This document shows positions 18,041 to 39,587 of a stretch of DNA of 64,000 nt, piece after piece (positions within the stretch are counted from its first letter, which is position 1; each line of letters opens with the position of its first letter). The stretch is taken from NCBI RefSeq assembly GCF_020035535.1, contig NZ_CP083349.1, forward strand, positions 1,612,001-1,676,000. The letters run 5' to 3'. The notes beneath the pieces are model-generated. The model was not told where the DNA came from and ran no database searches. It worked only from the letters and a program-made list of their open reading frames with translations. Made by a program: the position numbers and the translations under genes. This stretch comes from Ensifer adhaerens (GTDB lineage Bacteria; Pseudomonadota; Alphaproteobacteria; Rhizobiales; Rhizobiaceae).

Positions 18041-18161
18041 GAAACAGTCCGAGCCTGATACGACGATCAAAACGGTAATAGGGAGTGAGGAATGCAAACT
18101 GAGAGAGAGAACATAGAAGATTCAATCTGTTGTTGGCTTCGTATAACTAGCGTCACCGCGA

Positions 18162-18177
18162 TTTCGTCAACTTACAA
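18162..18177 (+). repeat. Candidate left terminal repeat of the island
   Basis: TTTCGTCAACTTACAA. Its first 10 bases recur directly at 38954-38963. Reading inward, the repeat also matches the inward-facing right copy TTTTGTCAACTAAGAG (38906-38891) at about 12 of 16 positions. CGTATAA precedes the direct repeat at both edges (18140-18146 and 38936-38942). Confidence 0.4.
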
Positions 18178-18311
18178 GACCAAATGCCGGATTTTCTCTT
18201 CGTAAGTTTACATTTTTGGTGCCCCAGAAAGGGCTTTTTCGCGAGAGCGCATCGTCCAGTCTTGCTCGTGTACGACCAGGAAGCTGAGCGAGCCTCAATG
18301 ACCGGACTGGT

Positions 18312-19622
18312 TCACCTGCACGCGGACAACATGTTCCTGACCGCCTTGTCGACCTGCCATTCGCCGTCGAACATCTGCTCGAGACTCCATTTGTCATAGT
18401 CGAAGGTACTGAAGGCCAACCGCCCTACCTCGAGTTCGCTGTCAACAAGAGGAGGTAACGCAAGTTTCGTGGCAATCGACAGCGAGATCGTTAACGCGGG
18501 ATCGAACGTCGCAGAACGAGCCCTCGCCGACTCGAGACCGGCCGACAGAAGATAATGGGTGGGAAGCGTCCAAGCCGTGTCGGGAAGCTTCGACTTCCCT
18601 TCCAGAATAGCAATAGCCTTGTCTCTGATCTCCGCGTCTGCCGGGAGGTTGGAAGCCTGCAGGCCGACCCTTAGCCAGCTCTCCACAGTACTGTCGGCCG
18701 ACCAAGTGCCGGCGCTGATGCAGATGCAGGCGAATGCGAATGCCGGGTCCATGTTTTGCTTGGCGGCGTCGGTCCACTTGCCCCATGCGTTCATCACCTC
18801 GGGCGGTTTCAATTGCTCGAAATCGGCCTTGTCCAGGTTGAGACAAACAAACGCTAAGCTCGCCGCTACGCGATACGCTTGTGTGAAGTCGTCCAGCTTG
18901 GCGAACGAGGCGACCATTCGCACCGGCGCAGTGTAAATTGTAAGATCTGGATCGGAGAGAAGAACCTCAAGATCTTTCTCGATCAGGCGTTTCTCAACGA
19001 CATCAGCGCCGGGCTTCAACGTGGCGGCTACCTCGAAACCAGTCGCGATCTCCGACCACGTCGCCGTGGTTTCGAGGAGCGCGCCGACAGTCATCGGTTG
19101 CCTGATGAAAAGCGTGCCGGATCCATAGAAGCGCACGAAGAGGATCGGACGCTGGTGGTCTTGGTGCCCCAGCGAATCGAACTCGATCCCGGCACTGAAG
19201 TCGACCGTGCTCTCTCGTGGCGCACCAAGCTTGCCCTCACCTTCCTGCACTCGGTAGTAGTCCGGATACATAAGACGACGCGTCTCGTCGTGGAGATAAA
19301 CCATCTTCCAGAATTCGCCTTCCGAGCCTCGGGCTCGCAGCTTGTCTAGGATGCCGAGCACGGAATGGATGTCGTCCATATGACGGCGCCCCCAAAGGGT
19401 ACCAGTCATGTCCGACCAATGGGTGAGTTCATGGAATATCGTCGATATTTCAAACCGTGAGTTGGCATAGTCGGCCGGTTCAGAACGCCCTTCGAACTGA
19501 TCACGGTGGATCTCGTTGAGGCCGATAACTTGAGATCGAAAATGGAACTCCGCGATTGAACTCCTGGCGGGAAAGATCGATTTGCCACGAAGTTCGGCGA
19601 ATTGCGTCTTGAAGTCCGGCAT
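18312..19622 (-). CDS. HExxH zinc-peptidase-like protein, third gene of the SIR2-HerA operon
   Basis: A 436-residue protein I do not recognise as a named family. It contains a clear zinc-peptidase signature, FEISTIFHELTHWSDMTGT, with His64, Glu65 and His68 of HExxH. A third ligand is not certain; acidic and His residues follow in the next 60 residues (HMDDIHS, HDETRR). The remainder is helical, with several Trp-rich stretches and no signal peptide or membrane segment, so it is cytoplasmic. I chose ATG 19622 (MPDFKTQFAEL), which has GGAG upstream and starts 17 bases after the herA stop. Third place in the SIR2-HerA operon suggests an effector or regulator of that system. Function is inferred from context only. 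Confidence 0.75.
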   Translation of the reverse strand: MPDFKTQFAELRGKSIFPARSSIAEFHFRSQVIGLNEIHRDQFEGRSEPADYANSRFEISTIFHELTHWSDMTGTLWGRRHMDDIHSVLGILDKLRARGSEGEFWKMVYLHDETRRLMYPDYYRVQEGEGKLGAPRESTVDFSAGIEFDSLGHQDHQRPILFVRFYGSGTLFIRQPMTVGALLETTATWSEIATGFEVAATLKPGADVVEKRLIEKDLEVLLSDPDLTIYTAPVRMVASFAKLDDFTQAYRVAASLAFVCLNLDKADFEQLKPPEVMNAWGKWTDAAKQNMDPAFAFACICISAGTWSADSTVESWLRVGLQASNLPADAEIRDKAIAILEGKSKLPDTAWTLPTHYLLSAGLESARARSATFDPALTISLSIATKLALPPLVDSELEVGRLAFSTFDYDKWSLEQMFDGEWQVDKAVRNMLSACR

Positions 19623-19639
19623 TGTCTTGCTGATGGCTC

Positions 19640-21715
19640 CTATTCTGTCCACGCGTCGACCACAGCACGCCAATCAACCGGCCGCGCTTGCTCGCCTGTC
19701 CACACGTCCCAATACGCCGGGTCTGCCGATCGCGGCTGGTGGGCCTCCGGAAGGTCGCGCATCTCGACCAGGATCGGGATTGGTGCCGCCCATCCCAGAA
19801 GCACCGCGTGCCTTGCTGGGAGGCTTGGCAGTTCCCGCAGCAGCCCGCCGACGGAGTCGGGCACCAACTTGCTGACGAGCCGCTGGTCTGCGTCGTTGAC
19901 GATGCGGTGAAGAAGGAACGTATTGCATTGCGCCAGAAGCGTCGGAGATAGCTCGGAAGGGCGTTGCGACGACACTAGTAGGCCAAGACCGAACTTTCGT
20001 CCCTCCCGCGCAATCCGTTCGAACACGTCGCGGCAGAGATCTGCAGCCGACCACGTTTCCGTGTCGGATGATCCGATGCCCTTGACGAAATTGTGGGCTT
20101 CCTCGAGCACAAGAACGGTCGGCAAGGTCTCGCCGTCGTTCTCCCGCCTGTACCGCTGAAGCGCCTCGAAGACTAGGCGTGCAAGGACGGACACCACGAT
20201 GTGCACGATCTCAGAGGGGATCAGAGATAGATCGATCACGGCGACGTTGCCATTGGAGGCTCCGTCTGCACCTACATATGTTTCCAGCCAGTCCTCGAAA
20301 TTGAGGCGCTCGGGGTCATCGATCACACTACCGAGCCGACGATCGGCCAGCATGCTCTTGATGCGCAGCCCCAAGGTGGCGATGAAGCCGGCCATGTTGG
20401 AGCCCTGCCGCTGGGCAAGGCCCTCGAGGTGCGACGAGAGCAGTGGAAGGTCGAATGGGATCGGAGCATCCTCGTGCATGAACGCGCCCTGTCCTTCATT
20501 CTCAGGCTTGGCGCCGGCGACGGGAGCCAGAGCGTCTGAGATCGCCTGCAACTCAGCCGTAGCGAAATCTGACCAGAAGCCTCGGGCGTTGCGCCTTTCG
20601 CCGATCAGCGACAGCACAGCGTCCTCGAGAGCATCGACGTCATCTTTGATCGCGGCCGACGCGACCTGGCTCCATGCCGAACTGTCTTCACCCAAAGCTC
20701 TCAGGATGCCTCCTATGTTCAACGTTGGTTGAAAGCCGGTGTATTCCTGCCGTCCAGCAGCAAGGGCGGCATCGATGCTTGTCTTGTATGAATGAGCCAC
20801 AACCCCTATCCGCTCATCCTCAGAGAGCTGAGCCTGATAGCCGCTCTTGAGCTCTCGAAGTCCCTGGCGCAGCAGAGGTCTTTGAACGCCTGGCTGCGCG
20901 TGCGAAAGAGTGCTCCACTCCAGCCCATTCCACAGCCACGCGGGAACCTTAAGAGCGGTCTCATCCCTGTCGAGCGGTGGCACGCGGAAGATGCGAGCGT
21001 TGCCGGGATCGTCGGCGAACGCCTGGCGATATTCGCCGTTCGGATCGAGAATTATGAAACGCCCGTTCGGTCGACCTTGTCTTCCACGTTTCTCGCGCTC
21101 TGAGGTTGCCGCATCGAGAGACCATCTGATGAGGCCCGCGACCGAACAGGATTTACCGCTCCCCGTATTACCGAGTACCGCAAGATGTCGTCCGAAGATC
21201 TTGTCCGGGTCGACCATGATGTCGGCGTCCATCGCCAACGGAGAGGTTCCGATCTGGACGCGCCTGTCTTCGTCACGCGCACCGACGATCGCGGAGATCT
21301 GAGCCGCGGTGGGTACCAGCACTTGGTCGCCGACGGATGGAAATGCGCGGACCCCACGCGAAAGTTCGAGCTCATCGCCGGATGGCGACGTCGATCTCAC
21401 CATCAAAGTGCCGATAGGCGACACAGTCATTCGCCGAGTTGGAAATGGAAGGTCGATTACGTCGAGCTGTCTACCCTCACCTCTTGGAAGCGGCGACCGC
21501 GTTATGCCGATCCAAGTCACGTAGGCGACGGTGGCGCCCGCTTCGTTTGGTAACAGAACATAGCCGTTGATCCGTGGGAACGGCGTCGGCATTCCAGTGT
21601 TCAACGCGATTGCCTGAGGTGTTTCCCCGCCGAGAGAAACCACGATCTCGCTTGGCGACACCGCCTCCACCGTACCGACGACGAGATCGGCAAGCGCTTG
21701 GACCGGAAACGTCAT
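19640..21715 (-). CDS. herA: HerA-like ATPase (DUF87) of a SIR2-HerA defence pair
   Basis: A 691-residue HerA/FtsK-superfamily hexameric ATPase. It has an N-terminal beta-barrel (HAS-barrel-like, about residues 1-90), Walker A LAVLGNTGSGKSC at about 182-189, Walker B TVLVLEEAHN at about 534-541, and sensor-like LGLLVSSQRPSELSPTLLAQCNT near 577-600. In characterised systems HerA assembles with SIR2 into a large complex that depletes NAD or cuts DNA upon phage infection. The start overlaps the SIR2 stop by 4 bases (ATGA), implying translational coupling. The gene symbol names the family, not an experimentally shown gene. Confidence 0.88.
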   Translation of the reverse strand: MTFPVQALADLVVGTVEAVSPSEIVVSLGGETPQAIALNTGMPTPFPRINGYVLLPNEAGATVAYVTWIGITRSPLPRGEGRQLDVIDLPFPTRRMTVSPIGTLMVRSTSPSGDELELSRGVRAFPSVGDQVLVPTAAQISAIVGARDEDRRVQIGTSPLAMDADIMVDPDKIFGRHLAVLGNTGSGKSCSVAGLIRWSLDAATSEREKRGRQGRPNGRFIILDPNGEYRQAFADDPGNARIFRVPPLDRDETALKVPAWLWNGLEWSTLSHAQPGVQRPLLRQGLRELKSGYQAQLSEDERIGVVAHSYKTSIDAALAAGRQEYTGFQPTLNIGGILRALGEDSSAWSQVASAAIKDDVDALEDAVLSLIGERRNARGFWSDFATAELQAISDALAPVAGAKPENEGQGAFMHEDAPIPFDLPLLSSHLEGLAQRQGSNMAGFIATLGLRIKSMLADRRLGSVIDDPERLNFEDWLETYVGADGASNGNVAVIDLSLIPSEIVHIVVSVLARLVFEALQRYRRENDGETLPTVLVLEEAHNFVKGIGSSDTETWSAADLCRDVFERIAREGRKFGLGLLVSSQRPSELSPTLLAQCNTFLLHRIVNDADQRLVSKLVPDSVGGLLRELPSLPARHAVLLGWAAPIPILVEMRDLPEAHQPRSADPAYWDVWTGEQARPVDWRAVVDAWTE

Positions 21716-23016
21716 GCAGAACTCGCTGTATCTTTCTGGCCGGCCTCGTTCCCCTTGCCATCATCGACCAGGCTCGGACGCCGCTTGAGAAGTTCTGCCA
21801 GACGTGTGCTGATGAAATCCAAGGCCGGCTTCGGCAAGTAGTGCCTCGTTAGCGTCTCAAGGTCCGTGAAATGCTTGCCGACGATCAGGGTGGTCTGGGC
21901 GTCGCGCGTTTTCTGTAGGAAGGACTCGAGGCGGTCGCTCATCGAACGCGCGGCGACCACGATATGCGTCGACGGGATGGCCAACATGTCTAGGATGATC
22001 CGGTTGATATGGTCGTCGCCGAAGCCATAGCCATATACGAAGAGGACGGCGTTCGGTCTGCACACCGATGCTGCAAAGTCCCGGAACAGTTCAGCGTAAG
22101 GATAGTAAGTTGTCTCGAAGTCCTTGGCAGGATTCGGATATATCATCACCGTGTCTACTGGTTCACTTGGGATATCCGTGTGAGTCTTCGGAGCGCCAAA
22201 AGGTAACCCGATGCGCTTGATGGATCTGCGCCGGGCGTCGTAGTTCCAATCGAGCGAGCCATGAAGCTTCGTTAGCCTCAATACGCCCTCCATGAACCTC
22301 GGTTCGCCTCGGATGCCCGGCGGATTGTAATGATAGTCCGCATCCACTCTTGACGCTCTGAACACTGGATTCAATGCGCCGACGAACCGATCGATGGTCC
22401 GGATTCCTGCAAGGTCGCAGCCGTACTCCAAAAGCCGGTCGTAATTGGTCGTGAAGACGTGGAGCCGCTCCCTCGACGCGGTCCTGCTTGCAAAGCTCAG
22501 GAGGAAGGACTGAAGTACAGAATCAGCGCGATCAGCCTTTTCGCCCTTCGCACTCTCGATGCCACGTTCGGTTTCCAGCAAAGATTCGAGGAAAAGCTTC
22601 AACTGCTTGTTCAGCTTGTCCCGCAGATCCTCGCCATCGCTCAAGTTCAGAATTTCGGAGCCTGCAAGCACAGCCAGCGCGCTTCGGAACTGATCTTCGA
22701 TGTTCGGCGCACCTCGTCCCATTCGTTTTGCGGTTTCCGTCGCATGGGCGTCGATCTCGGCATCGAATTTGGTGTCTAGCGTGATCTTGTCCATCCCCGC
22801 TGCAGGGGAACCGGCTATGTGCCCGATGGCAGCCGTGAAACCACTCCCGAGCAGAAGGTTCAGATGTTCCGCCTGGCAGGTGGCGGTGAGCCACGGTTCT
22901 ATCTTTTTTCGATGTTTGGCGATGAACTCGTCGAGTTCAGGAGCGTTCGTGGGGATAACGTCAGTCGAAAACGTCGACGTTCCTACCCGGTAGTAGTGTT
23001 GTGCCAGGTTGGCCAT
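21712..23016 (-). CDS. SIR2-like NADase domain protein, first gene of the defence operon
   Basis: A 434-residue protein with a SIR2-like Rossmann fold. NAD-binding LNLLLGSGFTAA lies at about residues 52-63, the catalytic-type Asn in HVFTTNYDRLLE (Asn191), and the His in LTKLHGSLDW (His252). A later VLFVYGYGFGDDHINRII block is typical of SIR2_2 proteins. Such domains act as NAD hydrolases in antiphage systems (Thoeris, SIR2-HerA/Nezha, DSR). I chose ATG 23016, with GGGAGG directly upstream, over an in-frame TTG at 23028. A 292-bp promoter region separates it from the divergent methyltransferase gene. Confidence 0.87.
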   Translation of the reverse strand: MANLAQHYYRVGTSTFSTDVIPTNAPELDEFIAKHRKKIEPWLTATCQAEHLNLLLGSGFTAAIGHIAGSPAAGMDKITLDTKFDAEIDAHATETAKRMGRGAPNIEDQFRSALAVLAGSEILNLSDGEDLRDKLNKQLKLFLESLLETERGIESAKGEKADRADSVLQSFLLSFASRTASRERLHVFTTNYDRLLEYGCDLAGIRTIDRFVGALNPVFRASRVDADYHYNPPGIRGEPRFMEGVLRLTKLHGSLDWNYDARRRSIKRIGLPFGAPKTHTDIPSEPVDTVMIYPNPAKDFETTYYPYAELFRDFAASVCRPNAVLFVYGYGFGDDHINRIILDMLAIPSTHIVVAARSMSDRLESFLQKTRDAQTTLIVGKHFTDLETLTRHYLPKPALDFISTRLAELLKRRPSLVDDGKGNEAGQKDTASSA

Positions 23017-23308
23017 CCTCCCTCCCAACAGAGGCTACCCTCCAGCGAGCCCTTGATAACGTGGCTGACCATAAGTTGATTCATTTCGTTTAGGAAGGCA
23101 GTTCGGTGGGATCTGGCGTGGCATTCTGAAAAGCTCAATTTTGCCGCAACGGACATCGAATCATGTGATGCGATAGACGATGAAACTCTGGCTACCACGC
23201 CAGGTTCACAAAATAAGCTGTAGTACTTCGCAGAATCGGGAGTGCAGACTCAAGCCTCGCGCGATAGGGTTGTGAAAAACAAAGCATTTCACGCAAGGTG
23301 AGCCGCGC

Positions 23309-26300
23309 ATGTCCGACAGCCTGACCGACCTGATCCTCAACTCGACGCCCGAGGATGGTACCTCCATTGGCAACGGAGCCATCCTGGCCCTGTTACGCGA
23401 GCGTCTGCCGGACCTGTCGGACGAAGAATATGTCGCCGCCCGTGACGCATTAATCGATGATGGAATCCTTGGACAAGGGCGTGGACGCGGCGGGTCGATC
23501 TATCGTGCAGATGTGATGGACCTAACGCTAGAGATACAGGATGAGGCAGAACCGGTACAGCCCCGAGGCAAAGCACGTGCCAGGGCGCGACGATCAGGAG
23601 AAGCGGTGCAAGTGCTCAGTTATCGCCACGGCGAGACGCGGGTGAACAATCCCGAGGTAGGAATGGTCCATGCCGGGACTGATCCGGACGGGGCCAGGAC
23701 CACCTGGAGTTATGACCCGCATCTGGACCCGGTGCTAAACTTCGACAGCGCCCGTGCCGGGATCGAAAGGCTTATCGACTCAGCGCTCTCCAACGGAGAT
23801 CCCGAAAGGATGAGGGATGCACTGATCGAGCTCAGGCGGTTGCAGGCTCCGTATCTAAATTGGACGGGAAAGGCCGAGCGGACGTCGTTCGAGGTCGATA
23901 CCGTATCGCTTCACGTGCATGAACGCGTGGACCCGGCGACGATCCTCGCCAATGCGACAAAGCGGCTGAAGGGTAAAGACGCGAGCGCGCAGTGGCGTCA
24001 GCCGGACCTCTTCGCGGCGCCGTTCGAAAACCTGCCGCTGCGCCAAGCATTGGATTTCTACGCGCATGAAAAGGGCTGGTCGAACCGGCTGGTGGCGGGT
24101 GACAGCCTGCTGGTGATGAATTCGCTGCTGACGAAGGAGAGTATGGGTGGCAAGGTGCAGATGATCTACATCGACCCACCCTATGGCATCAAATACGGGT
24201 CGAACTTTCAGCCCTTCGTCAGCAAGCGCGATGTAAAGGACCGATCGGACGAGGACCTGACGCAGGAACCCGAGATGATCAAGGCGTTCCGTGACACCTG
24301 GGAACTAGGCATCCATTCATATCTTACTTATCTCCGGGACCGGCTGGTGCTGGCGAGGGAGCTGCTGAGCGAAACCGGCTCCGTATTCGTACAGATCTCG
24401 GACGAGAATTTGCACCACGTAACGGAAATCCTTGAAGAAATATTCGGCGGGGACAACCTTATCAGCGTTGTGACGGTTCAAAAGACAAGCGGCGCTACCT
24501 CAGAATTGATATCCAACACAGCAGATTATTTAGTTTGGTTCGCCAAGAACAAAGAGTCGGTAAAGTACCGCCAGCTCTATGAGTTTAAGGCGCTGGATGG
24601 TGCGGGCGGAGGTGAATACCAATACCTCCAGTTTCCAAACGGAGATTCGCGGCGCATAGCGGTAGAGGAAAGGTCAAAGTATCAATCTCTCCGTGAAAAG
24701 GGCTCGGTCTATGCGTCGCATCCGATGACCTCTCAGAGACCGCCGGGCGATTTCCCTGTCGATTTCATGGGGCAGACAATCCGGCCGCGTTCGGGCTATT
24801 GGAAAACCGGTGAAGTAGGCTTCCCGCGCCTCATAAAGGCAAATCGGATTCTGCCAGCAGGATCAATATTGAAGTATCGGCGTCTGTTCGAGGACTTCCC
24901 TGTGATGCCCCGTAATAACCTTTGGGGCGATGTGAGTAGCGGAGCAAGCGCATCTGATCCGAAGGTCTACGCGGTTCAAACGACCCCAAGGGTCATCGAA
25001 CGATGCCTCCTCATGACTACCGATCCAGGCGATCTTGTTCTTGATCCCACTTGTGGCTCGGGCACCACCGCTTTTGTTGCGGAAAAGTGGGGGCGACGCT
25101 GGATCACATGTGACACCTCCCGCGTGGCGATCACGCTCGCCAAGCAGCGGCTGATGACCGCCAGTTTCGACTACTATTCACTCCGCTACCCGCACGAGGG
25201 GCTGAAGGGGGGCTTCGACTATGAAACCGTGCCGCACATCACCCTAAAGAGCATCGCCAACAATCCCGACATCGATACGATATACGCCGAGGATCACTCC
25301 AGGATCGAAGCGGCGCTGGCATCCCTAAACGCCGCGCTGACCGCCACTCCGCCGAGTCCCCTTCGCCCGGAGCAGGGCGTGCGCAAGGGGCAGCAGGTGA
25401 GGTTCCGTGACGGTGAGACGCTGTATGAATGGGAGGTGCCCTTCGATTGGCCGGACTATTGGCCCGAGGCAGCACGCGCACCCTTCGACGCCTTTCACTC
25501 CAACCGTCAGGCGATGCAGCGGCGCATTGATCAGAGCATCGCTGACCATGCCGAACAGGAAACGCTCTACGATCAGCCGCGCGTAGACCGGAACCGCGTG
25601 CGCATCACCGGCCCCTTTTCGGTTGAAGCCGTACCAGCGCCGACCGTCCTGTCGCTTGACGATAGTCTGCCGCCCACCGAGGCCAACGACAGTATCGCCC
25701 GAACAGGCGAAACGTCGCGCCAATCGGTTTGGCGCGACGAGCTCTTGAAAACGGGCGTCCGCGGAAAAGGTGGCGCGATGTTGACCTTCGCCGAGTTCGA
25801 GACACTGCCGGGGCTGCGGCATCTCCATGCCAGCGGATTCCTTGCCGAGACAGGAGAGCGCGTCGTCGTTAGCTTTGGCCCTGAGCATGCGGCCCTAGAG
25901 CAACGGCAGGTGGAACTCGCGCTGACAGAGGCAGAAAACCTGAGGCCTGCACCGAAGTTCATCCTCTTCTGCGCCTTCACCTTTGATCCTGAAGCCGCGA
26001 AGGACATCGACGAGGTAAATTGGCCCGGCGTAACCCTGCTTAAGGCGCAGATGAACACCGATCTTCTGACCGAAGATCTTAAGAAGGCACGGTCCTCGAA
26101 TCAGTCCTTCTGGCTGATGGGCCAGCCCGATGTTGAACTGCGGACACGCAAGGACGGAATGTGGGAGGTCGAGGTCAACGGCTTCGATTATTTCGACCCA
26201 AAAGCTGGCGATTTGGTGTCAGGCGGAAAGAGGCAGATCGCCATGTGGTCCCTGGACATTGATTATGACCAGCGATCCCTTATGCCGCATCAAGTGTTCT

Positions 26301-26497
26301 TTCCGATGGCAGATGACAAAGGTGGGTGGAATCGGCTGAAGACGACGGTTCGCGCGGAACTGGACGAGGACCTGCTGGAGCAGTTCCACGGCACGGTGTC
26401 GCTGCCGTTCTCCGCGGGCGACAATAAACGTATCGCGGTGAAGATCGTCGATGACCGCGGCATCGAGTCCCTCAAGATCATGCCGCTAGAGGGTTGA
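23309..26497 (+). CDS. Type III-like restriction-modification methyltransferase (Mod)
   Basis: A 1062-residue beta-class DNA amino-methyltransferase. The catalytic motif DPPY (residues 289-292, MIYIDPPYGIKYGSNFQPF) precedes the AdoMet-binding motif I, LVLDPTCGSGTTAFVAEKWGRRW, near residue 577, the order typical of type III Mod enzymes that make N6-methyladenine. Between them, about residues 385-540 have more A/T-rich codons and should be the target-recognition domain. The N-terminal 240 residues and the long C-terminal part are specific extensions. The stop overlaps the next gene, so Mod and Res are translationally coupled. Specificity cannot be predicted. Confidence 0.88.
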   Translation: MSDSLTDLILNSTPEDGTSIGNGAILALLRERLPDLSDEEYVAARDALIDDGILGQGRGRGGSIYRADVMDLTLEIQDEAEPVQPRGKARARARRSGEAVQVLSYRHGETRVNNPEVGMVHAGTDPDGARTTWSYDPHLDPVLNFDSARAGIERLIDSALSNGDPERMRDALIELRRLQAPYLNWTGKAERTSFEVDTVSLHVHERVDPATILANATKRLKGKDASAQWRQPDLFAAPFENLPLRQALDFYAHEKGWSNRLVAGDSLLVMNSLLTKESMGGKVQMIYIDPPYGIKYGSNFQPFVSKRDVKDRSDEDLTQEPEMIKAFRDTWELGIHSYLTYLRDRLVLARELLSETGSVFVQISDENLHHVTEILEEIFGGDNLISVVTVQKTSGATSELISNTADYLVWFAKNKESVKYRQLYEFKALDGAGGGEYQYLQFPNGDSRRIAVEERSKYQSLREKGSVYASHPMTSQRPPGDFPVDFMGQTIRPRSGYWKTGEVGFPRLIKANRILPAGSILKYRRLFEDFPVMPRNNLWGDVSSGASASDPKVYAVQTTPRVIERCLLMTTDPGDLVLDPTCGSGTTAFVAEKWGRRWITCDTSRVAITLAKQRLMTASFDYYSLRYPHEGLKGGFDYETVPHITLKSIANNPDIDTIYAEDHSRIEAALASLNAALTATPPSPLRPEQGVRKGQQVRFRDGETLYEWEVPFDWPDYWPEAARAPFDAFHSNRQAMQRRIDQSIADHAEQETLYDQPRVDRNRVRITGPFSVEAVPAPTVLSLDDSLPPTEANDSIARTGETSRQSVWRDELLKTGVRGKGGAMLTFAEFETLPGLRHLHASGFLAETGERVVVSFGPEHAALEQRQVELALTEAENLRPAPKFILFCAFTFDPEAAKDIDEVNWPGVTLLKAQMNTDLLTEDLKKARSSNQSFWLMGQPDVELRTRKDGMWEVEVNGFDYFDPKAGDLVSGGKRQIAMWSLDIDYDQRSLMPHQVFFPMADDKGGWNRLKTTVRAELDEDLLEQFHGTVSLPFSAGDNKRIAVKIVDDRGIESLKIMPLEG

Positions 26498-26502
26498 GCG
26501 TC

Positions 26503-29301
26503 ATGTCCCTCATTATAAATACCCCATTTGTCTGCCCGGCGCAGCATTGGGTCGAAGTCAACGGCGGCAAGCTCGAAATCAAGGCCGAGCGTCGTCCCGC
26601 GAGCTACGAAGTCTTCGACGCTCGCAACAACACCAAGCGGACCGAAGTTCTGGATTTGGTGAACACGATCCGCACCCGCGTTGACGCGTGGCGCGAGGCG
26701 GGCTGGCCCGGCGTAACTATCGTTACCCGCAAGCTACTGGAGCACTGGTACGACCGGGAGGCGCGGCAGCATCCGTTCTATTTCTGCCAGCTCGAGGCGA
26801 TCGAAACCCTGATTTGGTGGGTCGAGGGAACCGAAGCATTTAAGCAGGGTATCGCGATTCCAGGCGACGGTGGCGGCTGGGAGCGACTCTGTAACAAAAT
26901 GGCCACCGGCGCCGGCAAGACGACGGTGATGGCGATGATTATCACCTGGCAGGTGCTCAACGCTCTGACCTACCCCAAGCGGAACAAGAATTTCAGCCGC
27001 GCGGTCTTCATCGTAGCGCCGGGCCTTACGGTGAAAGAACGCCTACAGGTGTTGCTGCCTCGCGAGGGCAGCTATTACGACGAGTTCAATCTCTGCCCCT
27101 CGGAAGCGCTGCGTCAGAAACTCAACCAGGCCGAGGTCCTGATTGAAAACTGGCATACGCTGATGCCCCTGAAAGAGGTGGAACGCTCGGTTGTGAAGAA
27201 AGGGCAGGAATCCGACGAAGCATTCACGCGCCGTGTTCTTGGAAAGCTGGCCGCTCACAAGGACATTATCGTCATCAACGACGAGGCTCATCATGCCTAT
27301 CGCAAGCCACCTGAGGTGAAGATCAGCAAGAAGCAGGCGGCCGAACAGGGGATCGATCTCGACGAGGCGACACGCTGGATCGAGGGCCTGGATCGCATCC
27401 ATAAGACCCGCCGCATCCAACGCTGCTTCGACCTCTCGGCCACGCCCTTTGCCCCTACCGGCAAGAAGAGCACGGATACCGCGCTGTTCGACTGGATCAT
27501 CTCCGACTTCGGTCTCAACGACGCGATCGAAGCTGGGCTGGTCAAGACGCCGCGCGTCGTGGTGCGGGACGACGCGCTCCCGGATGCTAGAACGCTGCGA
27601 TCAAAGCTCTATCACATCTACCGCGACCCATCGGTCTCTGAGGATCTGAACAGATCGAAGGCGGAGCCGCACGAGGCGCTGCCCAAGCTGGTACAGGACG
27701 CCTACACCCTTCTCGGTGCAGATTGGCGTGAAACTCAGCGCCAATGGGCAGCGGCCGGGCATCATTCGCCTCCGGTCATGCTGACGGTCTGCAACCGCAC
27801 CGAGACCGCCGCCCGTGTAGAGCACTATTTCAATAAGGGCGACTCGCACTGGCCGGAATTGCATGCCCCGACCAGAACGCTGCGCGTCGATTCAAGGGTG
27901 CTCGATAAGGCGGAGATCGGCGAAACCGCCACGTCCGACAGAGACTACGAAAACAGACTGAAGACCATCATCGAGGCGGCGGATCTGCAGGACAACCGAA
28001 AGCAGCAACTTCTCGCCCTAAAGAAAGAAGAGCTGCTGCGAGAAATCGTGGACAATGTTGGCAAGCGAGGCGCCGCAGGCCAGGACCTGCAGAATGTCAT
28101 CTCGGTCGCGATGTTGTCTGAGGGATGGGACGCCAAGAATGTGACGCACATCATGGGCTTGCGCGCGTTCACCTCGCAGTTGTTATGTGAGCAGGTAGTG
28201 GGCCGTGGTCTGCGTCGGGTTTCCTACGACACGGATGAAAACGGGCTATTCCTGCCGGAATATGTGAATGTCTTTGGCGTTCCACTTTCTATTTCTGAAA
28301 CCGGCGAAGGCGGCGAAGCGCCTCCGCCGCCCAAGCCGACAACCCAGATCGAGGTCGTCTCAGATAAGGCGCACCTCGAAATCAAGTGGCCCAACGTGCT
28401 GCGGGTGGAAACGGTGGTTAAGCCACAGTTGACCATCGCCTGGGACATAGTGCCGGCCCTTGTGCTCGACCCGGCATCAACCCCGATCAGTGCCGAACTG
28501 GCACCCGCATTGGGCGGAGCGGCGGATATGGGCAAGGTCAGAGAGATCGATCTTGAACGCCTTCCGGACGGATTTCGTCTGCAAAGGCTTGTTTTTCAGG
28601 CTTCGCGCAAAGGTTTTGCCGAGCTGAGGCACAACTTCTCTGGGACCGAGGAGTATCTTGCTGCGCAGTTAGTTCGCATCGTGGAGAGCTTCCTGAATTC
28701 CAGACTCCTTGATATTCCGTCACTTTTCCACTCCGATCCTCTGCGCCGACGCATCCTGATTGCGTTGAATATCGACTTGGTCGTCCAGCATCTCATGCGA
28801 CATGTTCGCGAACAGAACACAGAGCGCCTTGTTCCGGTCTTCGATGAGGAAAACCCCATCGGAACCACGGGACAAATGCAGACTTGGTACACGACCAAGC
28901 CGTGCGTTCCGGCGACGAGGTCGCACATCAGCCACCTTGTCGGCGACTCCTCATGGGAGGGGCACGCAGCGAACATTTTCGAGAGCCGAAACGATATCGT
29001 CGCCTATGCAAAGAACGATCATCTGGGCTTTCAGATCCAGTACATGTGGGCTGGCTCTCGGCGCAGATATGTCCCCGACTTCCTTGTACGACTATCCAAT
29101 GGCAAGACACTTGCACTCGAAATCAAGGGAACGGACGGCCCGCAGAACAAGGCGAAGCGCGACGCATTGAACGAATGGGTCAAGGCGATCAACGGGACAG
29201 GTGGATTTGGATTGTGGGCTTGGGATGTTGCATTCCGACCGAGCGATGTGCAGGACATAGTCAGCAAGCACTCGGAGTCGATCGGCGTAAAGTCCGGCTA
29301 G
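26503..29301 (+). CDS. Type III-like restriction endonuclease/helicase (Res)
   Basis: A 932-residue superfamily 2 helicase-nuclease. Walker A is NKMATGAGKTTVMAM (about residues 131-145), DEAH is IIVINDEAHHAY (near 260), motif III is LSATPF, motif VI is QVVGRGLRR (near 570), and the C-terminal PD-(D/E)xK nuclease is YVPDFLVRLSNGKTLALEIKG (about 855-876), with catalytic Asp, Glu and Lys all present. It should translocate and cleave unmodified DNA together with Mod. I chose ATG 26503, 5 bases after the Mod stop; TTG 26494 is an alternative that overlaps. All motifs look intact, so the system is probably active. Confidence 0.88.
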   Translation: MSLIINTPFVCPAQHWVEVNGGKLEIKAERRPASYEVFDARNNTKRTEVLDLVNTIRTRVDAWREAGWPGVTIVTRKLLEHWYDREARQHPFYFCQLEAIETLIWWVEGTEAFKQGIAIPGDGGGWERLCNKMATGAGKTTVMAMIITWQVLNALTYPKRNKNFSRAVFIVAPGLTVKERLQVLLPREGSYYDEFNLCPSEALRQKLNQAEVLIENWHTLMPLKEVERSVVKKGQESDEAFTRRVLGKLAAHKDIIVINDEAHHAYRKPPEVKISKKQAAEQGIDLDEATRWIEGLDRIHKTRRIQRCFDLSATPFAPTGKKSTDTALFDWIISDFGLNDAIEAGLVKTPRVVVRDDALPDARTLRSKLYHIYRDPSVSEDLNRSKAEPHEALPKLVQDAYTLLGADWRETQRQWAAAGHHSPPVMLTVCNRTETAARVEHYFNKGDSHWPELHAPTRTLRVDSRVLDKAEIGETATSDRDYENRLKTIIEAADLQDNRKQQLLALKKEELLREIVDNVGKRGAAGQDLQNVISVAMLSEGWDAKNVTHIMGLRAFTSQLLCEQVVGRGLRRVSYDTDENGLFLPEYVNVFGVPLSISETGEGGEAPPPPKPTTQIEVVSDKAHLEIKWPNVLRVETVVKPQLTIAWDIVPALVLDPASTPISAELAPALGGAADMGKVREIDLERLPDGFRLQRLVFQASRKGFAELRHNFSGTEEYLAAQLVRIVESFLNSRLLDIPSLFHSDPLRRRILIALNIDLVVQHLMRHVREQNTERLVPVFDEENPIGTTGQMQTWYTTKPCVPATRSHISHLVGDSSWEGHAANIFESRNDIVAYAKNDHLGFQIQYMWAGSRRRYVPDFLVRLSNGKTLALEIKGTDGPQNKAKRDALNEWVKAINGTGGFGLWAWDVAFRPSDVQDIVSKHSESIGVKSG

Positions 29302-29640
29302 CAGCGCCTCGGCTAATCACGAGGACTTATGCTGGCGCAGGCTTCGCGATGGGGTCCGTCCAGGAAAGGCAACACCGTCGCCGAGCCAGAAGGCAAGATT
29401 GCCGTGGCCAGGGATCGGGTTGTCAGTCAATCATCGTGTCCAGTCCTACGGCTAGGTGAGAGTTAACCATCGGGTACCTGAGAACCGCGTACTATCCTTC
29501 GGAACCAGTGAGTGAACCACTGGACTCTCAGCGCTCGCCGTAGCCCTGTACTCCGTGCAACGAGAAATGCATCATCACGGCCGGGTGGTGCGAGGGCATC
29601 ATGTAAATTAGAGCGCAAATCATCTGGACGCTCGTCGCCG
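29302..29640. other. Non-coding stretch after the restriction gene
   Basis: This 339-bp stretch follows the Res stop codon. I see no supported gene, no intrinsic terminator with a T-run and no repeat. Short frames here have stops and no ribosome binding sites. It may be a decayed sequence. Confidence 0.4.
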
Positions 29641-29898
29641 CTAGTGAATTTCTAGTCCCAGTATCCTGAAAACGTGGCGGTTCTGTACAATATCGTCCTC
29701 TACAGCGCGCTGCAGTTGTTCGCATAGAAGCGACGCCTCCACATCGCCTTCTGTCACATCTCGCAAGTTCTCGAAATCTTGCAGCATGTCGGCAACCGCA
29801 ACACGCATGGCGTGCCCACACGAGACGATCGTGCTGATTGATAGCGTCAAATTACGAATCAGTTTCCTCCGTTCTTCTCTGGAGAGTACGTCGTTCAT
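29641..29898 (-). CDS. Hypothetical small helical protein
   Basis: An 85-residue protein I do not recognise. It is rich in charged and hydrophobic alternation (REERRKLIRNLTLSISTIV, VEASLLCEQLQRAVEDDIVQN), suggesting a helical cytoplasmic protein without membrane segments. The start ATG 29898 has only a weak GAG element upstream. It stands alone in the AT-richer regulatory part of the island, next to gene fragments. It could be a small regulator or antitoxin-like protein, but nothing specific supports that. Confidence 0.4.
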   Translation of the reverse strand: MNDVLSREERRKLIRNLTLSISTIVSCGHAMRVAVADMLQDFENLRDVTEGDVEASLLCEQLQRAVEDDIVQNRHVFRILGLEIH

Positions 29899-29960
29899 TT
29901 CTCGATCCGTTCGCTTTTAGATTTCTTGGGCCAGACGTGTAAGCTTCGTCGAAAAACTAC

Positions 29961-30140
29961 TTATTTTTCTTGTTTCTCGCCATCCCGAAGCTCTTTGCGC
30001 GAACTGTCTCGGTCAGCCAGATACCGCCTGAGCTTCCCCCTGGGGCGACCGTGCCCCACTATCAAACGCGCTCTACGGAATGCGCGAAAACCGAATTCCC
30101 TGAGCTCATCGAGGAGGCTCTTCGCGGGTTCTTCGTCCAT
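29961..30140 (-). CDS. Hypothetical small ORF, possibly a 5'-truncated gene
   Basis: From ATG 30140 this frame encodes 59 residues (MDEEPAKSLLDELREFG...) ending in a highly charged tail. The same frame stays open upstream to 30224 without a start codon, reading NADLHKEDRRAPSED and a proline-containing link. That gives a longer coherent coding signal than expected by chance and suggests the gene lost its 5' end. No family is recognised. The adjacent ImmA/IrrE remnant shows that the region has decayed. Confidence 0.35.
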   Translation of the reverse strand: MDEEPAKSLLDELREFGFRAFRRARLIVGHGRPRGKLRRYLADRDSSRKELRDGEKQEK

Positions 30141-30248
30141 CAGGCCACACCTAGGTTTCGGCAGCGCCAGCGCCGAATCCTCGCTTGGCGCGCGGCGATC
30201 CTCTTTATGAAGATCGGCGTTGTTCTACCCCTGCGGGCTGAGAGCAGT

Positions 30249-30344
30249 CAAAGCCGATGAAGGTTCACCAGGTTTGCCAGGCGTATGGTCATCGCTTGAA
30301 CGCTGACCCTGTATTGGGTGGCGAGTTCTTTGATATAGCTTCTT
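30249..30344 (-). pseudogene. Remnant of an ImmA/IrrE-type metallopeptidase C-terminus
   Basis: Thirty-one codons between an in-frame stop at 30345-30347 and a stop at 30249-30251 read YIKELATQYRVSVQAMTIRL followed by ANLVNLHRL. This matches the C-terminal signature of ImmA/IrrE-like proteins (LA..F.VS.QAM..RL..LG). The HExxH catalytic part is absent. It is likely the remains of an antitoxin/peptidase partner of an XRE regulator. Confidence 0.45.
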
Positions 30345-30397
30345 CATATTCCAACATCTGCAGATGTGGCCAGGGCATCGCCCCCCTTTAAAGCGCA

Positions 30398-30697
30398 TCA
30401 GTGACGCTCCTTACCATCGCCAATATCCAGGCGATACCAGCGGCTCATCGTCCGAGCTACTCCGACCTCAGTATCGATGTAGAATACTTGGCTTGTCGTG
30501 ATCTTTCGACCGGAACCCAGCCTTGGATGTCCTTCAACGACTCCGGAAAGCATCCCTACCGAAAGTGGAAGGATACGATGGTTGTACAATATCGGTGCAT
30601 CACGAAGATCGATAGCATTGACGCGTCCTGCTTCCACCAATCGCAGGTCATCAACCAGGAGCGCGAGCGCTTCCGCAGGTGCGAATTTTATTCTCAT
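30398..30697 (-). CDS. Conserved-looking small protein of unknown function, divergent from an XRE gene
   Basis: A 99-residue protein. I chose ATG 30697 (MRIKFAPAEALALLVDDLRL) because AGGA lies seven bases upstream; a longer frame reaches 30778 and would start close to the palindrome. The C-terminal part GHPRLGSGRKITTSQVFYID, then ARTMSRWYRLD, resembles a small family common in rhizobia and their plasmids, whose function is unknown to me. It is divergent from the XRE regulator, with the 36-bp dyad between them, so co-regulation is likely. Confidence 0.55.
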   Translation of the reverse strand: MRIKFAPAEALALLVDDLRLVEAGRVNAIDLRDAPILYNHRILPLSVGMLSGVVEGHPRLGSGRKITTSQVFYIDTEVGVARTMSRWYRLDIGDGKERH

Positions 30698-30789
30698 AAT
30701 CTGTCCTTCGACATTCGGTATGTAGGCGATTTTACGGCTAGAAAGTGCTGTTTCCGTTCCCAACTGAGTATGTCGCAAGGACTCAATGG

Positions 30790-30825
30790 GTAGTCACTGA
30801 AGTCATATATGACGTCACTGACTAC
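30790..30825. promoter_or_regulatory. 36-bp near-perfect palindrome, probable operator of the XRE regulator
   Basis: A dyad centred at 30807.5. The inner GTCATATATGAC (30802-30813) is perfect, the outer arms GTAGTCA and TGACTAC are perfect, and only two symmetric position pairs mismatch. TTGACA (30827-30832) and TTCAAT (30850-30855), separated by 17 bases, form a possible sigma-70 promoter for the XRE gene directly beside it. This is the size and position of a repressor-dimer operator. Confidence 0.65.
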
Positions 30826-30875
30826 CTTGACAACAAGCATTTGCAAGCATTCAATTTTGATGTCACTCATCCAGT

Positions 30876-31151
30876 ATGAGACCCCCGGACCGCATCTTAA
30901 TTGCAGCACGAATCCTTGTCGGGCAGACCCAGCGCGAGCTGGCGAAAGCAACCGGCTTCACTCAAAAGACCGTTTACCTGATCGAAAAAGGCGAAGCGGG
31001 TTTTGGTGCAGTGGAGAGGCTCACGCAGCATTTTGAACAATGCGGTATTATCTTTATCAAACCGGACGGGTCGGAAGGTTGGGGGGTACGAGCTTCATTT
31101 TTGACCGCGGACTACCGAAGAAACACAAGCGATCAAAGTTCAAGCGACTGA
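30876..31151 (+). CDS. XRE-family transcriptional regulator
   Basis: A 91-residue protein that is mostly one helix-turn-helix domain: ILIAARILVGQTQRELAKATGFTQKTVYLIEKGEAGFGAVERLTQHFE (about residues 7-53), with recognition helix TQKTVYLIEKG. A short tail follows. The start ATG 30876 lacks an obvious Shine-Dalgarno, suggesting a near-leaderless mRNA from the promoter at 30827-30855. It probably binds the 36-bp dyad and controls itself and the divergent gene. Such regulators often control excision or toxin genes in islands. Confidence 0.8.
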   Translation: MRPPDRILIAARILVGQTQRELAKATGFTQKTVYLIEKGEAGFGAVERLTQHFEQCGIIFIKPDGSEGWGVRASFLTADYRRNTSDQSSSD

Positions 31152-31340
31152 GACATTGCCAATGGTCAAAACAAGGCGTCCCGATAGTTCTTAATCTAGC
31201 CAGAAAACAGGGGCTCATTGCCGCCCCTCTGACGTCCCTGCGGGCCGCCATTCACCCGCTAGGATATTTTCAGTGAACGATTTCCATGGTAGTTCAGGAC
31301 TACGGTACAGCCGGGGACGGCGATGGCCGTGTGAACGACG

Positions 31341-31364
31341 ACGGACTGGCGAGAGTCAGTCCGT
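31341..31364 (-). terminator. Hairpin over the end of the recombinase-helicase operon
   Basis: ACGGACTG (31341-31348) pairs with CAGTCCGT (31357-31364) around an 8-base loop; the helicase stop codon lies within it. There is no T-run on the minus strand, so termination is uncertain. Confidence 0.4.
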
Positions 31365-33233
31365 TGCCATTTCAGCGGCTCGCAGTCCAAGTGCCACTTC
31401 CCTGTCCAGAGATCTGGGATGTGGCCGCACACCGCGGCCGAATCCAACCTCGGAACCAACGAGTACCACCCGATCGATCGCGCGCGTCACGGCCGTGTAG
31501 ATCATCGCCCGATCCATGTTCGCGGTGGGCAGAACGGGCATGACCACGTTCTTGAACTGGCTGCCCTGAGCCTTGTGAACGCTGATGCAATAGGCAAGGC
31601 TAAGCTTCTGGATCTCGCCCGGTTCGATCCGATGGCTGTTCCCATCGAACGCCGCAACGACAGCGTCACGGTCGAAGCCCACGACCGTCCCCATCGATCC
31701 GTTCCAAAGATGGCGATCATAGTCATTGACGGTCCAGATGCAGGGGTCGCCCTCGGCGAACCCGTGCATCGCACTGAAGCCGGCCCGCTTTCGGAGATCA
31801 TGGAAGTACGCGTTGATCGCGTCGATGCCCGCAGCTCCGGCATACACCGCCGCGACCACCTGCACTTCCTCGTGCCCAAGGTCGTGGAGGATGTCCTCGA
31901 TGGTCTCGACGATGCTGGCTTCCGGAGTGGCGGCGAAGCTGCAGCCACCGCACTCACTATTGTATGTCGGAACCTGAGGGACGCGGCCCTGCCTGATGGC
32001 AAGCGACACCTCGGGAATTCCGGATTCTGCCGAGGCTCTCAGGATGCGCGTCAGTTCAGTCTTCGCAATCCGATCTTCGAGGACAAGACGATGGAGCGTG
32101 AGACCGAAGCCGATCGGCGGAAGCTGCGCGGTATCTCCCACCAGCAGACAGCGCGCGTCCTCCGGCAGATGGAAGAGTATCCGGTAAAGGGTCGGAAGAT
32201 CGAGCATCGAGGCTTCGTCGACAATGACGAGGGTGTGCCGCCCGAGTTCGATCCGTCCGTCCGTCACCTCTTTCAGCCAGGATGCGACTGTCTGGGCTGG
32301 TTGTCCGGTCGTCTCGGCGATCCGCCCGGCGGCGCGCCCGGCAATCGCAAGCTGGTAGACGTTCATGCCGAAGTGCCGGGCTGCCGCGTTTATGGCTCTC
32401 AGCGCGGTGGTCTTTCCAACGCCAGCCCCGCCTATCAGGAGAGAGAATGCGTGCTGCATCGCCATCGCAACGGCATGGCGCTGCTCATCGGTCAGGTTCC
32501 GGGACGGGTCGAACCGCTCGAGGAAAGCCGAGATGTCTGCGGGACTGATGTCATCGAGAAAGAGGTCTCGGGATGTGCGCCGGAGATGTCCTTCGATGCG
32601 AGCTTCGATGAACCGTTCCATGTAGGCCGCGCCGGCGGGCTGGAACCCACCTTCGATCGGGATTGCAGCACCATCGGCCACCGCCAGTCGCACGGCGGCA
32701 GAAGCGCTCTCAGTGCTCGTTGAGAGCCGCTTCGCCACGAGCTCGACGAGAACGGCTTCGTCACACCAGGTATGCTTCCGGTCGAGGCGGTCGTAGAGGA
32801 CGCTCTCGACTGCGGCGACGAGCCGCCGCGGATCGTCTTTCCGCATGTCGAGTGCCGTCGCGACCCGGTCGACCTGCGACCACGTGCAGACGGTCAGCAG
32901 GCGGTACGGGTTATCCCTCATCTTCAGGACGGCCTGATCGCCCCAGAAGTCGACGGCCTTGCGGGAGAGACCGATATCGATCCCGTGCTCGTCGAAGAAT
33001 ACCACGCAGTCGGCCAGCGCTTGCTGGTTCCGCCACGCCTCGATGACGATAGCAGCCTGATTGCGGTCGAGCAGTTCCGACAGGCGGTCGACATCGCCAT
33101 CGCCAAGAATCACATAGAGGTCCGATCCGTACCGCTCCCACAGACGGGCGGCCGTCGCCTTGCCCACGCCGACGAACTCCGGTCGCGAGGCAAGGAATTC
33201 AACGATGTGGCGGCCCCGCGGTATTGCGGTCAT
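31356..33233 (-). CDS. RecD2-like superfamily 1B helicase of the island
   Basis: A 625-residue ATPase related to RecD2/TraA helicases. The N-terminus has a helix-hairpin-helix-like PEFVGVGKATAARLWERYG (about residues 18-36). Walker A is IGGAGVGKTTALRA (268-276), Walker B is LVIVDEASMLD (339-342), and the C-terminal motif SLAYCISVHKAQGSQFKNVV is the SF1B motif V/VI region. It should translocate 5' to 3' on single-stranded DNA. The start overlaps the preceding coiled-coil gene by 4 bases (ATGA), making it the last gene of the recombinase operon. A role in processing element DNA during excision or transfer is inferred from context. Confidence 0.82.
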   Translation of the reverse strand: MTAIPRGRHIVEFLASRPEFVGVGKATAARLWERYGSDLYVILGDGDVDRLSELLDRNQAAIVIEAWRNQQALADCVVFFDEHGIDIGLSRKAVDFWGDQAVLKMRDNPYRLLTVCTWSQVDRVATALDMRKDDPRRLVAAVESVLYDRLDRKHTWCDEAVLVELVAKRLSTSTESASAAVRLAVADGAAIPIEGGFQPAGAAYMERFIEARIEGHLRRTSRDLFLDDISPADISAFLERFDPSRNLTDEQRHAVAMAMQHAFSLLIGGAGVGKTTALRAINAAARHFGMNVYQLAIAGRAAGRIAETTGQPAQTVASWLKEVTDGRIELGRHTLVIVDEASMLDLPTLYRILFHLPEDARCLLVGDTAQLPPIGFGLTLHRLVLEDRIAKTELTRILRASAESGIPEVSLAIRQGRVPQVPTYNSECGGCSFAATPEASIVETIEDILHDLGHEEVQVVAAVYAGAAGIDAINAYFHDLRKRAGFSAMHGFAEGDPCIWTVNDYDRHLWNGSMGTVVGFDRDAVVAAFDGNSHRIEPGEIQKLSLAYCISVHKAQGSQFKNVVMPVLPTANMDRAMIYTAVTRAIDRVVLVGSEVGFGRGVRPHPRSLDREVALGLRAAEMATD

Positions 33234-33616
33234 GGCATCACTCGCCTCCCCGTCAGCGTGGCATGCTCATACCTCGCGAGCTTCCGCCTTAGCTCATAGT
33301 TCTCGCCTCTCAGCGCTGCGAGCTGCTGTTCGAGCATGGTGATGCGCGCCTTGTCGGCTCCATCGCGCCGCGGTGGCTCTGGTGCGGACGGGCCTTCCAG
33401 ACCCAGCATCGCGACAGCCTCATCCAGCCGCTGCTCGAAGCGCTTGTTTTGGTTGAAGGTCTCCCGGTTGAACCCGCACGCTGTGGCGACGGCCGTCTTG
33501 TTGACCTTGCCGCCCCTGCTGGGAAGCTTGAGCCCAGCGTTTTGCATCTTCTCGATGTACGCCTCGAGCCGAAGGAAGTTTTCCTCGCTGATCTGCTGGA
33601 AGGAATTGAGGCTCAT
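33230..33616 (-). CDS. Small coiled-coil protein, TnpC-like
   Basis: A 128-residue protein with an N-terminal helical region including TAVATACGFNRETFNQNKRF (an HTH-like segment, about residues 45-64) and a C-terminal coiled coil, ARITMLEQQLAALRGENYEL and onward. Small proteins with this layout accompany multi-recombinase elements such as Tn554 (TnpC), where they affect frequency or orientation of transposition. Overlaps of 4 bases with genes on both sides mark it as part of one operon. The TnpC comparison is by size and context, not alignment. Confidence 0.6.
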   Translation of the reverse strand: MSLNSFQQISEENFLRLEAYIEKMQNAGLKLPSRGGKVNKTAVATACGFNRETFNQNKRFEQRLDEAVAMLGLEGPSAPEPPRRDGADKARITMLEQQLAALRGENYELRRKLARYEHATLTGRRVMP

Positions 33617-34041
33617 CGCTTCACCTCGCTCGCACCGCGGTTAACGGGAGGCAGCGCCTTGTTCAAGTCGGCTTCGCCAAGGCCGCGGCTTCTGGCGTTG
33701 TACAGCCAGGTGGCAAAAGTCTCGAGCAGCCTCTCCCGTTCGGCCTCGAGCCGGGTGACCTCTGCCGTGAGAGTGTCGATGCGCTGCTGGGAATGTGCAA
33801 GCTCAGGCGGCAGATCGCTTTCGACGCACTTCTTCTTCGGACGCGTCCGTATCCGATCCTTGGCCAGACCGAAGGCCAATTTGATGCTGTCGTTCTTGTC
33901 CAGTCCCTGCCGGGTGAAGGATCGCCGTAGAAACGGCTGCACCTGGTCGAGTAGCTTTTCCCAGGTCAGCGTACCCTTCCAGGAGGCAAGCGTTGCGACG
34001 ATCATCTCGACTTCCTTGTCCGTCAGTCTCGCTCTCGCCAT
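33613..34041 (-). CDS. Second small coiled-coil accessory protein
   Basis: A 142-residue protein with a helical N-terminus (LTDKEVEMIVATLASWKGTL, then WEKLLDQVQPFLRRSFTRQGL), a basic patch RTRPKKKC, and a coiled coil, SQQRIDTLTAEVTRLEAERE (about residues 85-110). I chose ATG 34041, with GGAAAG upstream, just after the stop of the large recombinase; GTG 34056 is an alternative. Its place between recombinase and TnpC-like genes suggests a DNA-binding accessory factor of the recombination complex. No named family is recognised. Confidence 0.55.
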   Translation of the reverse strand: MARARLTDKEVEMIVATLASWKGTLTWEKLLDQVQPFLRRSFTRQGLDKNDSIKLAFGLAKDRIRTRPKKKCVESDLPPELAHSQQRIDTLTAEVTRLEAERERLLETFATWLYNARSRGLGEADLNKALPPVNRGASEVKR

Positions 34042-34043
34042 CG

Positions 34044-38904: not shown

Positions 38905-38906
38905 AA
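38891..38906 (-). repeat. Candidate right terminal inverted repeat of the island
   Basis: On the minus strand TTTTGTCAACTAAGAG, similar to the left-end TTTCGTCAACTTACAA. It overlaps the start of recombinase 1. A further direct copy TTTCGTCAAC lies at 38954-38963; the A/T runs inside and outside make TTGACAAAAA...TTTTTCGTCAA an interrupted dyad around a CCGCC/GGCGG hairpin (38915-38934). Confidence 0.4.
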
Positions 38907-38953
38907 ACCAGCGCTCCGCCCCATCTGAGGCGGAACGTATAAGTCATGGAATT

Positions 38954-38963
38954 TTTCGTCAAC
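38954..38963 (+). repeat. Direct copy of the left-end TTTCGTCAAC
   Basis: An exact 10-base match to 18162-18171; both are preceded by CGTATAA at 11-15 bases. This is a possible attachment core left by integration. Confidence 0.4.
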
Positions 38964-38987
38964 AAAAAAGGCAGCAAATACAATAAC

Positions 38988-39013
38988 TTGCATTCTGCAA
39001 ATTTGCATTTTGC
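38988..39013 (+). repeat. Tandem TTGCATTYTGC repeat between ssb and the island
   Basis: TTGCATTCTGC (38988-38998) and TTGCATTTTGC (39003-39013) are direct repeats with 15-bp spacing. They lie 14 bases after the ssb stop in the ssb-proximal flank and could be arm-type recombinase or regulator binding sites. Confidence 0.35.
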
Positions 39014-39026
39014 GAACTATTCTTTT

Positions 39027-39587
39027 TTAGAACGGAATGTCGTCGTCCATATCGCGCGAGAAGCCGCCGCCCTGACCGCCCTGGCCACCTTGGCTGCCAC
39101 CCGAACGGCCGCCGCCTGAAGACTGGCGCGGCTGCTGATCGTAGTCGTCGTAACCACCACCGCCACCGCCGTAGTTGCTACCGCCGAAGTCGCCGCCACC
39201 GCCGCCACGGCTGACGCCGGAGCCGCCGCCCTCGCCGCGACCGTCGAGCATCGTCAGCGTCGAGTTGAAGCCCTGCAGTACCACTTCCGTCGAGTAGCGG
39301 TCGTTACCGTTCTGATCCTGCCACTTGCGGGTCTGCAGTGCGCCTTCGATATAGAGCTTGGCGCCCTTCTTGACGTACTGCTCGACAACCTTGCAGAGGC
39401 CTTCGTTGAACACGACGACCGTGTGCCACTCCGTCTTTTCCTTGCGTTCGCCGCTGTTGCGGTCGCGCCAGGTTTCCGAGGTTGCGATGCGCAGGTTGGC
39501 GATCGGCCGGCCGTCCTGCGTGCGCCGGATTTCCGGGTCTGCCCCGACATTTCCGATCAAGATCACCTTGTTGACGCTTCCAGCCAT
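39027..39587 (-). CDS. ssb: Single-stranded DNA-binding protein
   Basis: A 186-residue SSB with the OB fold in residues 1-110 ([55 protein letters not shown]). A long flexible Gly-rich linker follows, then the acidic protein-interaction tail DMDDDIPF at the C-terminus. It coats single-stranded DNA in replication, repair and recombination. It is divergent from uvrA, with a GTTC-N7-GTTC SOS box in the 280-bp gap. No strong terminator separates it from the recombinase operon downstream on the same strand. Confidence 0.97.

Follow-up and report, generated by a model that had tools for sequence, protein, structure and literature searches.

SIR2-HerA (Nezha-type) systems are the closest described relatives of the locus discussed here. 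According to the excerpted text of PMC11559045, relatives in V. cholerae gave resistance with SIR2 and herA alone, and both the SIR2 active site and HerA were required. Some bacterial immune systems use proteolysis; the examples named in the excerpt of PMC10952713 are type III-E CRISPR and Borvo, both with a CHAT protease. Here we consider a 64,000-nucleotide stretch of the Ensifer adhaerens genome (contig NZ_CP083349.1, positions 1,612,001 to 1,676,000 of the forward strand; hereafter the window, with its first letter as position 1), in which a SIR2-HerA pair is followed by a gene for a protein with an HExxH motif (the HExxH gene). With some reservation, we favor the reading that SIR2 and HerA by themselves make up a complete Nezha-type system of two genes, and that the HExxH gene, zinc-dependent peptidase-like and independent of them, was added behind as cargo of a mobile element. 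This reading rests on the gene order, the spacing, the intact motifs and the location at the end of the element. It rests also on the absence of the HExxH gene at the 12 related SIR2-HerA loci that were read and on several of its relatives that lie beside other defense-type genes.

The SIR2-HerA pair and the gene downstream of it

All three genes are on the minus strand, arranged head to tail, and their open reading frames (ORFs) are intact. The first gene of the operon (21712..23016) encodes a SIR2-family NADase-like protein of 434 amino acids; its ATG at 23016 is preceded by a purine-rich stretch, and its stop at 21712 overlaps by four bases the ATG of the second gene (19640..21715), which encodes a HerA-type ATPase/helicase of 691 amino acids. 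The third gene (18312..19622), encoding a zinc-peptidase-like protein of 436 amino acids and no named family, begins with an ATG at 19622, 17 bases beyond the HerA stop. This start is supported because nine of 17 homologues are likewise exactly 436 amino acids long. A first-pass annotation, made from the window alone, had described three minus-strand genes with a four-base overlap, a 17-base gap and a third product of 436 residues, all of which the ORF coordinates confirm; the interval that it noted extends 150 bases beyond the HExxH stop, to a left edge at 18162. Also beyond the HExxH gene, in DNA common to two of five congeners, is the terminator-like stem that scores strongest on the minus strand (18040-18010). 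Close spacing inside a defense island is insufficient to define a new multi-gene system.

The SIR2 protein matches the PADLOC model PDLC04079 with 672.9 bits (residues 5-427 of the longer ORF that was scanned) and the Pfam family PF13289. HerA matches PDLC04098 with 1062.8 bits over residues 1-690 and Pfam PF01935, and both PADLOC matches are near full length. In SIR2, FTTNYD and KLHGSL can be aligned to the PDB relative 8j4u_A, and entry 8j4u contains relatives of both SIR2 and HerA. The conserved Asn and His residues of these two motifs have a catalytic role in SIR2. Moreover, a Walker-A-like GNTGSGKS can be read in HerA. Two features of Nezha membership are visible in the sequence: a SIR2-like domain in which the Asn and His motifs are conserved, and an adjacent full-length HerA. 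A further mark of Nezha systems is a large complex of SIR2 and HerA that hydrolyses NAD upon infection. Judged by their sequences, SIR2 and HerA form an ordinary pair of the Nezha type with nothing missing, and the pair called earlier is genuine, with PADLOC matches of 673 and 1063 bits that run almost end to end.

Neighborhoods of SIR2-HerA and of the HExxH gene

The first-pass annotation went on to propose that the HExxH protein is a regular third component of SIR2-HerA systems. The neighborhoods of its homologues do not support this: among the relatives whose context was read, they lie mostly away from SIR2-HerA. Sixteen loci outside the window were read (L001-L004, L038-L043, L051, L058, L059, L094, L097, and L098; L041 is the same place as L050), with flanks from less than 1 kb (L051, one side) to ~9 kb or more. 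Within the DNA fetched, none of the 16 carries a SIR2-HerA pair of the window's type. One of them, L042, carries a distant pair that starts ~1.6 kb downstream of the HExxH gene, with a SIR2 that is 28% identical over 214 residues and a HerA that is 24-32% identical. Among the HExxH relatives above 46% identity, the context read is that of L038 (53%), which is without SIR2-HerA; the closest relatives (93% and 80%) are known as proteins only.

Read from the side of the pair, the HExxH gene is present at none of 12 related SIR2-HerA loci (HerA 43-59% identical overall) and at neither of two distant pairs (L048 and L049). These 12 are no random draw but hits that ranked high or added variety: L044-L047 are the four best HerA hits other than the window's own, L052-L057 are six of 60 plasmid rows listed, of 639 records, and L101 and L102 are both HerA hits in one searched genus (L054 and L055 gave split alignments). 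In the genus searched with both proteins, HerA was found in two of 146 genomes (E <= 1e-100) and the HExxH protein in two, and these are different genomes. The longest-contig sizes of 17 HExxH relatives coincide with none of those of 120 HerA proteins listed of at least 5758, which hints, weakly, that the two sets of relatives occupy different loci. Collectively, a three-component SIR2-HerA system as a general rule is not supported.

A separate feature is that at four of the 12 related loci (L044, L045, L052, and L053; e.g., L052:6650-15114) the genes that come next after SIR2-HerA, on its strand, are SbcD-like and SbcC/Rad50-like. This four-gene row resembles the archaeal HerA-NurA-Mre11-Rad50 row, with SIR2 replacing NurA. 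The four names occur together in a paper whose title concerns jumbo phages.

The integrated element that carries the operon

Comparison with congeners places the operon inside an integrated element of ~21 kb with the approximate extent 18076..39028. This DNA is missing in all 15 other species of the genus, where the flanking genes are 0.1-0.55 kb apart. The right edge falls at 39029 in all five junctions that were compared, and the left edge at 18075-18080 in two of them, with similarity ending near 17853-17865 in the other three. We take the left flank (17233-17862) to be a MarC-like gene and the right flank (39027-39587) to be a single-strand-binding-protein-like gene. The defense genes are positioned at one end of the element, and the HExxH gene is its outermost cargo gene. 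At the opposite end are a RecD2-like helicase gene, two integrase genes and a gene for a 687-amino-acid protein without a family match, the latter three within 34044-38904. The element also includes, upstream of the operon and on the opposite strand, a type III restriction-modification pair (23309-29301), whose Res protein scores 1148 bits against the BPTD_3080 restriction endonuclease family and so passes its cut-off. Outside the element, two neighboring ar15 small RNAs and a glycine riboswitch were noted at 6648-6966 and 62143-62230.

Distribution and defense-type neighbors of the HExxH family

Two protein searches returned 17 and 37 HExxH homologues, or 41 different proteins combined, and plasmid records together with a genome scan added relatives from cyanobacteria, Bacillota, Sphingomonas, Azospirillum, and Hydrogenedentes. 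Counted in genome samples that overlap one another, the family occurs in three of 394 genomes of the host's family (its own included), in one of 16 of the genus and one of 337 of a class sample (its own only in both), in two of 398 of a phylum sample (its own and one other), and in one of 39 and two of 146 in two related genera. On plasmids the count is six of 72,556. The family is wide but sparse; in contrast, at least 5758 proteins resemble the window's HerA at E <= 1e-150.

At seven of the 16 loci a different defense-type gene stands beside the HExxH relative or within ~1.6 kb of it. In R. etli (L001) this is a NACHT gene, 21 bases upstream on the same strand, part of which is Mrr-like below threshold. 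At L043 the relative (L043:2860-4200) belongs to a row of genes on one strand: a PglW-like frame precedes it, and a PglX-like frame follows directly, without a gap; both frames are cut by contig ends. An AAA_15 ATPase like AriA/OLD/GajA is located ~0.6 kb upstream of the HExxH gene at L038. At the Azospirillum locus L042, a caspase gene, the HExxH relative and the distant SIR2-HerA pair are all contained in a 9-kb stretch (L042:4465-12960). The remaining neighbors are a NERD-UvrD gene together with a JukA-like gene encoded on the opposite strand (L003), two type II-like methyltransferases (L098), and a cytosine methyltransferase ~1 kb from the HExxH gene (L041/L050). A DUF4062 gene, of a family not in the PADLOC list, lies 1.8 kb away at L094, and at L002 and L097 the relative is alone between genes on the other strand. 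The scanned proteins at L039 (two neighbors), L097 (one), and L002 (one) match no PADLOC family; neighbors at L004, L040, L051, L058, and L059 were read as frames or record annotation only.

The HExxH protein

That the third protein belongs to no recognized family, as first noted, agrees with our searches: there is nothing at cut-off in Pfam, NCBIfam or PADLOC, no PHROGs match (E <= 0.1) and no PDB sequence match (E <= 1). Comparison of 43 family members with Pfam at E <= 0.1 gave a single match, of one member to SidE_PDE (E 0.03). Two candidate families were tried and set aside. The Pfam profile of ImmA/IrrE-type peptidases (M78) is matched by none of the 43 members at that threshold. The motif of DPP III (M49) is HExxGH, and all 43 have a five-residue HExxH without this spacing. 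Literature pairing metalloproteases or gluzincins with antiphage defense, defense islands, SIR2 or SIR2-HerA was not found, and "not described" is meant here for these pairings.

The FHELTHW motif covers residues 63-69, so the original numbering of His64, Glu65, and His68 is correct. In an alignment of the 43 members, which reaches down to ~23% identity and whose rows are not independent, H64, E65, and H68 are identical in all 43, and because of this invariance the motif is not a chance HExxH; it is conserved and enzyme-like. The corresponding codons (19419..19433, minus strand) encode the predicted zinc-binding and catalytic motif H64-E65-L-T-H68 within predicted helix 49-74. Residues E184, A187, and E191 are identical in 43 of 43 as well; the segment E184-x-x-A-x-x-S-E191 (codons at 19050..19073, minus strand; predicted helix 179-199) is a candidate source of the third zinc ligand. 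The same invariance holds for Y122, R174, and Y230. The AlphaFold2 (AF2) model of the protein is confident (pLDDT 89.7, pTM 0.92), and the likeness of the predicted fold to gluzincin zinc peptidases is only within noise. These data suggest that the HExxH proteins are a rare, enzyme-like and probably zincin-like family without a name. What stands of the earlier proposal for this protein is a conserved, enzyme-like HExxH motif with a plausible third ligand; the regular association with SIR2-HerA is not supported.

Models for the three-gene operon

The HExxH gene looks like a movable extra, not a fixed third part, because the relatives that were read sit elsewhere, several of them beside other defense genes. 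We think it most likely that the gene travels as mobile cargo, is transcribed together with the pair and has a target of its own. In the model that we favor, SIR2-HerA would work without the HExxH protein, and HerA would license the hydrolysis of NAD by SIR2 once infection occurs. The pair alone would be sufficient here because the V. cholerae relatives work that way, as the excerpt of PMC11559045 has it. The HExxH gene would share its transcript with the pair, and the HExxH protein would combine a gluzincin-like catalytic domain with a helical C-terminal half. H64, H68, and either E184 or E191 may hold the zinc, with E65 as the general base, and the protein might be an additional effector or regulator that cuts a protein of the host or of the phage. 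Since its relatives do without the pair and have a scattered distribution, an obligate partnership with SIR2-HerA is not expected.

A broader and tentative proposal is that the HExxH proteins are an undescribed family of defense-linked zinc peptidases, a proteolytic effector or regulator that unrelated immune systems (SIR2-HerA, NACHT, OLD/AriA-like ATPases and Pgl/BREX) have in common. If this is true, bacterial immunity would have in target-specific proteolysis a portable module that can be added on. A family of this sort, rare, zinc-peptidase-like, invariant at its catalytic residues and located beside several unrelated defense genes, would constitute a new source of effectors or regulators.

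Several observations weigh against an independent cargo gene of this kind. The 17-base same-strand gap fits a coupled three-gene unit, L042 is a second HExxH locus with SIR2-HerA, a distant pair 1.6 kb downstream, and the loci read do not include those of the 93% and 80% identical HExxH relatives or of most others with more than 46% identity, which makes a fixed association in a small clade possible. At nine of the 16 loci no defense-type neighbor was recognized, five of these nine being outside the family-library scans, and the enrichment near defense genes is an impression, given as seven of 16 without a random-locus control. Moreover, Foldseek with the model of the HExxH protein gave no significant structural match, known peptidases included, and in a second look the rows that ranked highest for the full-length protein were helical bundles of GPCRs.

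The 17-base gap and the second HExxH locus near a distant SIR2-HerA (L042) would agree with a lineage-restricted three-component variant of SIR2-HerA, in which the peptidase is obligate in a small rhizobial clade and either activates SIR2-HerA or is an effector triggered by it; the head-to-tail genes on one strand and the conserved catalytic residues point the same way. We consider such a variant unlikely, given that none of the 12 related SIR2-HerA loci has the HExxH gene and that L038 is without SIR2-HerA. The contigs of a 94% HerA relative (P0047, longest contig 169395) and of the 93% and 80% HExxH relatives (P0002, 83237; P0003, 464818) differ in length as well, a weak comparison as only the longest contig of each cluster is shown. 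It is quite unlikely that a free-standing defense or toxin-like gene landed downstream of herA in the defense island, with shared transcription being incidental. The relatives that stand alone at L002 and L097 and the outermost position in the window's element would fit such a gene, whereas the same-strand rows with a defense gene in three loci (window, L001, and L043) suggest some functional coupling. Finally, the protein could be catalytically dead or no peptidase at all, with a structural role for HExxHWxD. This would be in keeping with the Foldseek result and is highly improbable, since dead enzymes usually lose catalytic residues such as H64, E65, H68, E184, E191, Y122, Y230, and R174, all invariant in 43 of 43.

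Comparison with known systems

The gluzincins (DPP III/M49 and the M1 aminopeptidases) have no significant sequence or Foldseek match to the HExxH protein, which has 116 residues between H68 and E184. ArdC, which is zincin-like, matches it within noise; it is called an antirestriction protein in its PDB title, whereas the window's HExxH gene sits among defense genes. The likeness to Pgl/BREX type 2 lies in the ~26% identical HExxH relative between the PglW-like and PglX-like frames of L043, and the difference in that no Pgl gene was identified in the scanned parts of the window. Compared with Nezha/SIR2-HerA, the window adds a same-strand HExxH gene 17 bases downstream that is absent at 12 of 12 related loci read; what it shares with this system are both genes, their order and overlap, the signature motifs of SIR2 and HerA, the nearly end-to-end PADLOC matches and the relatives in 8j4u.
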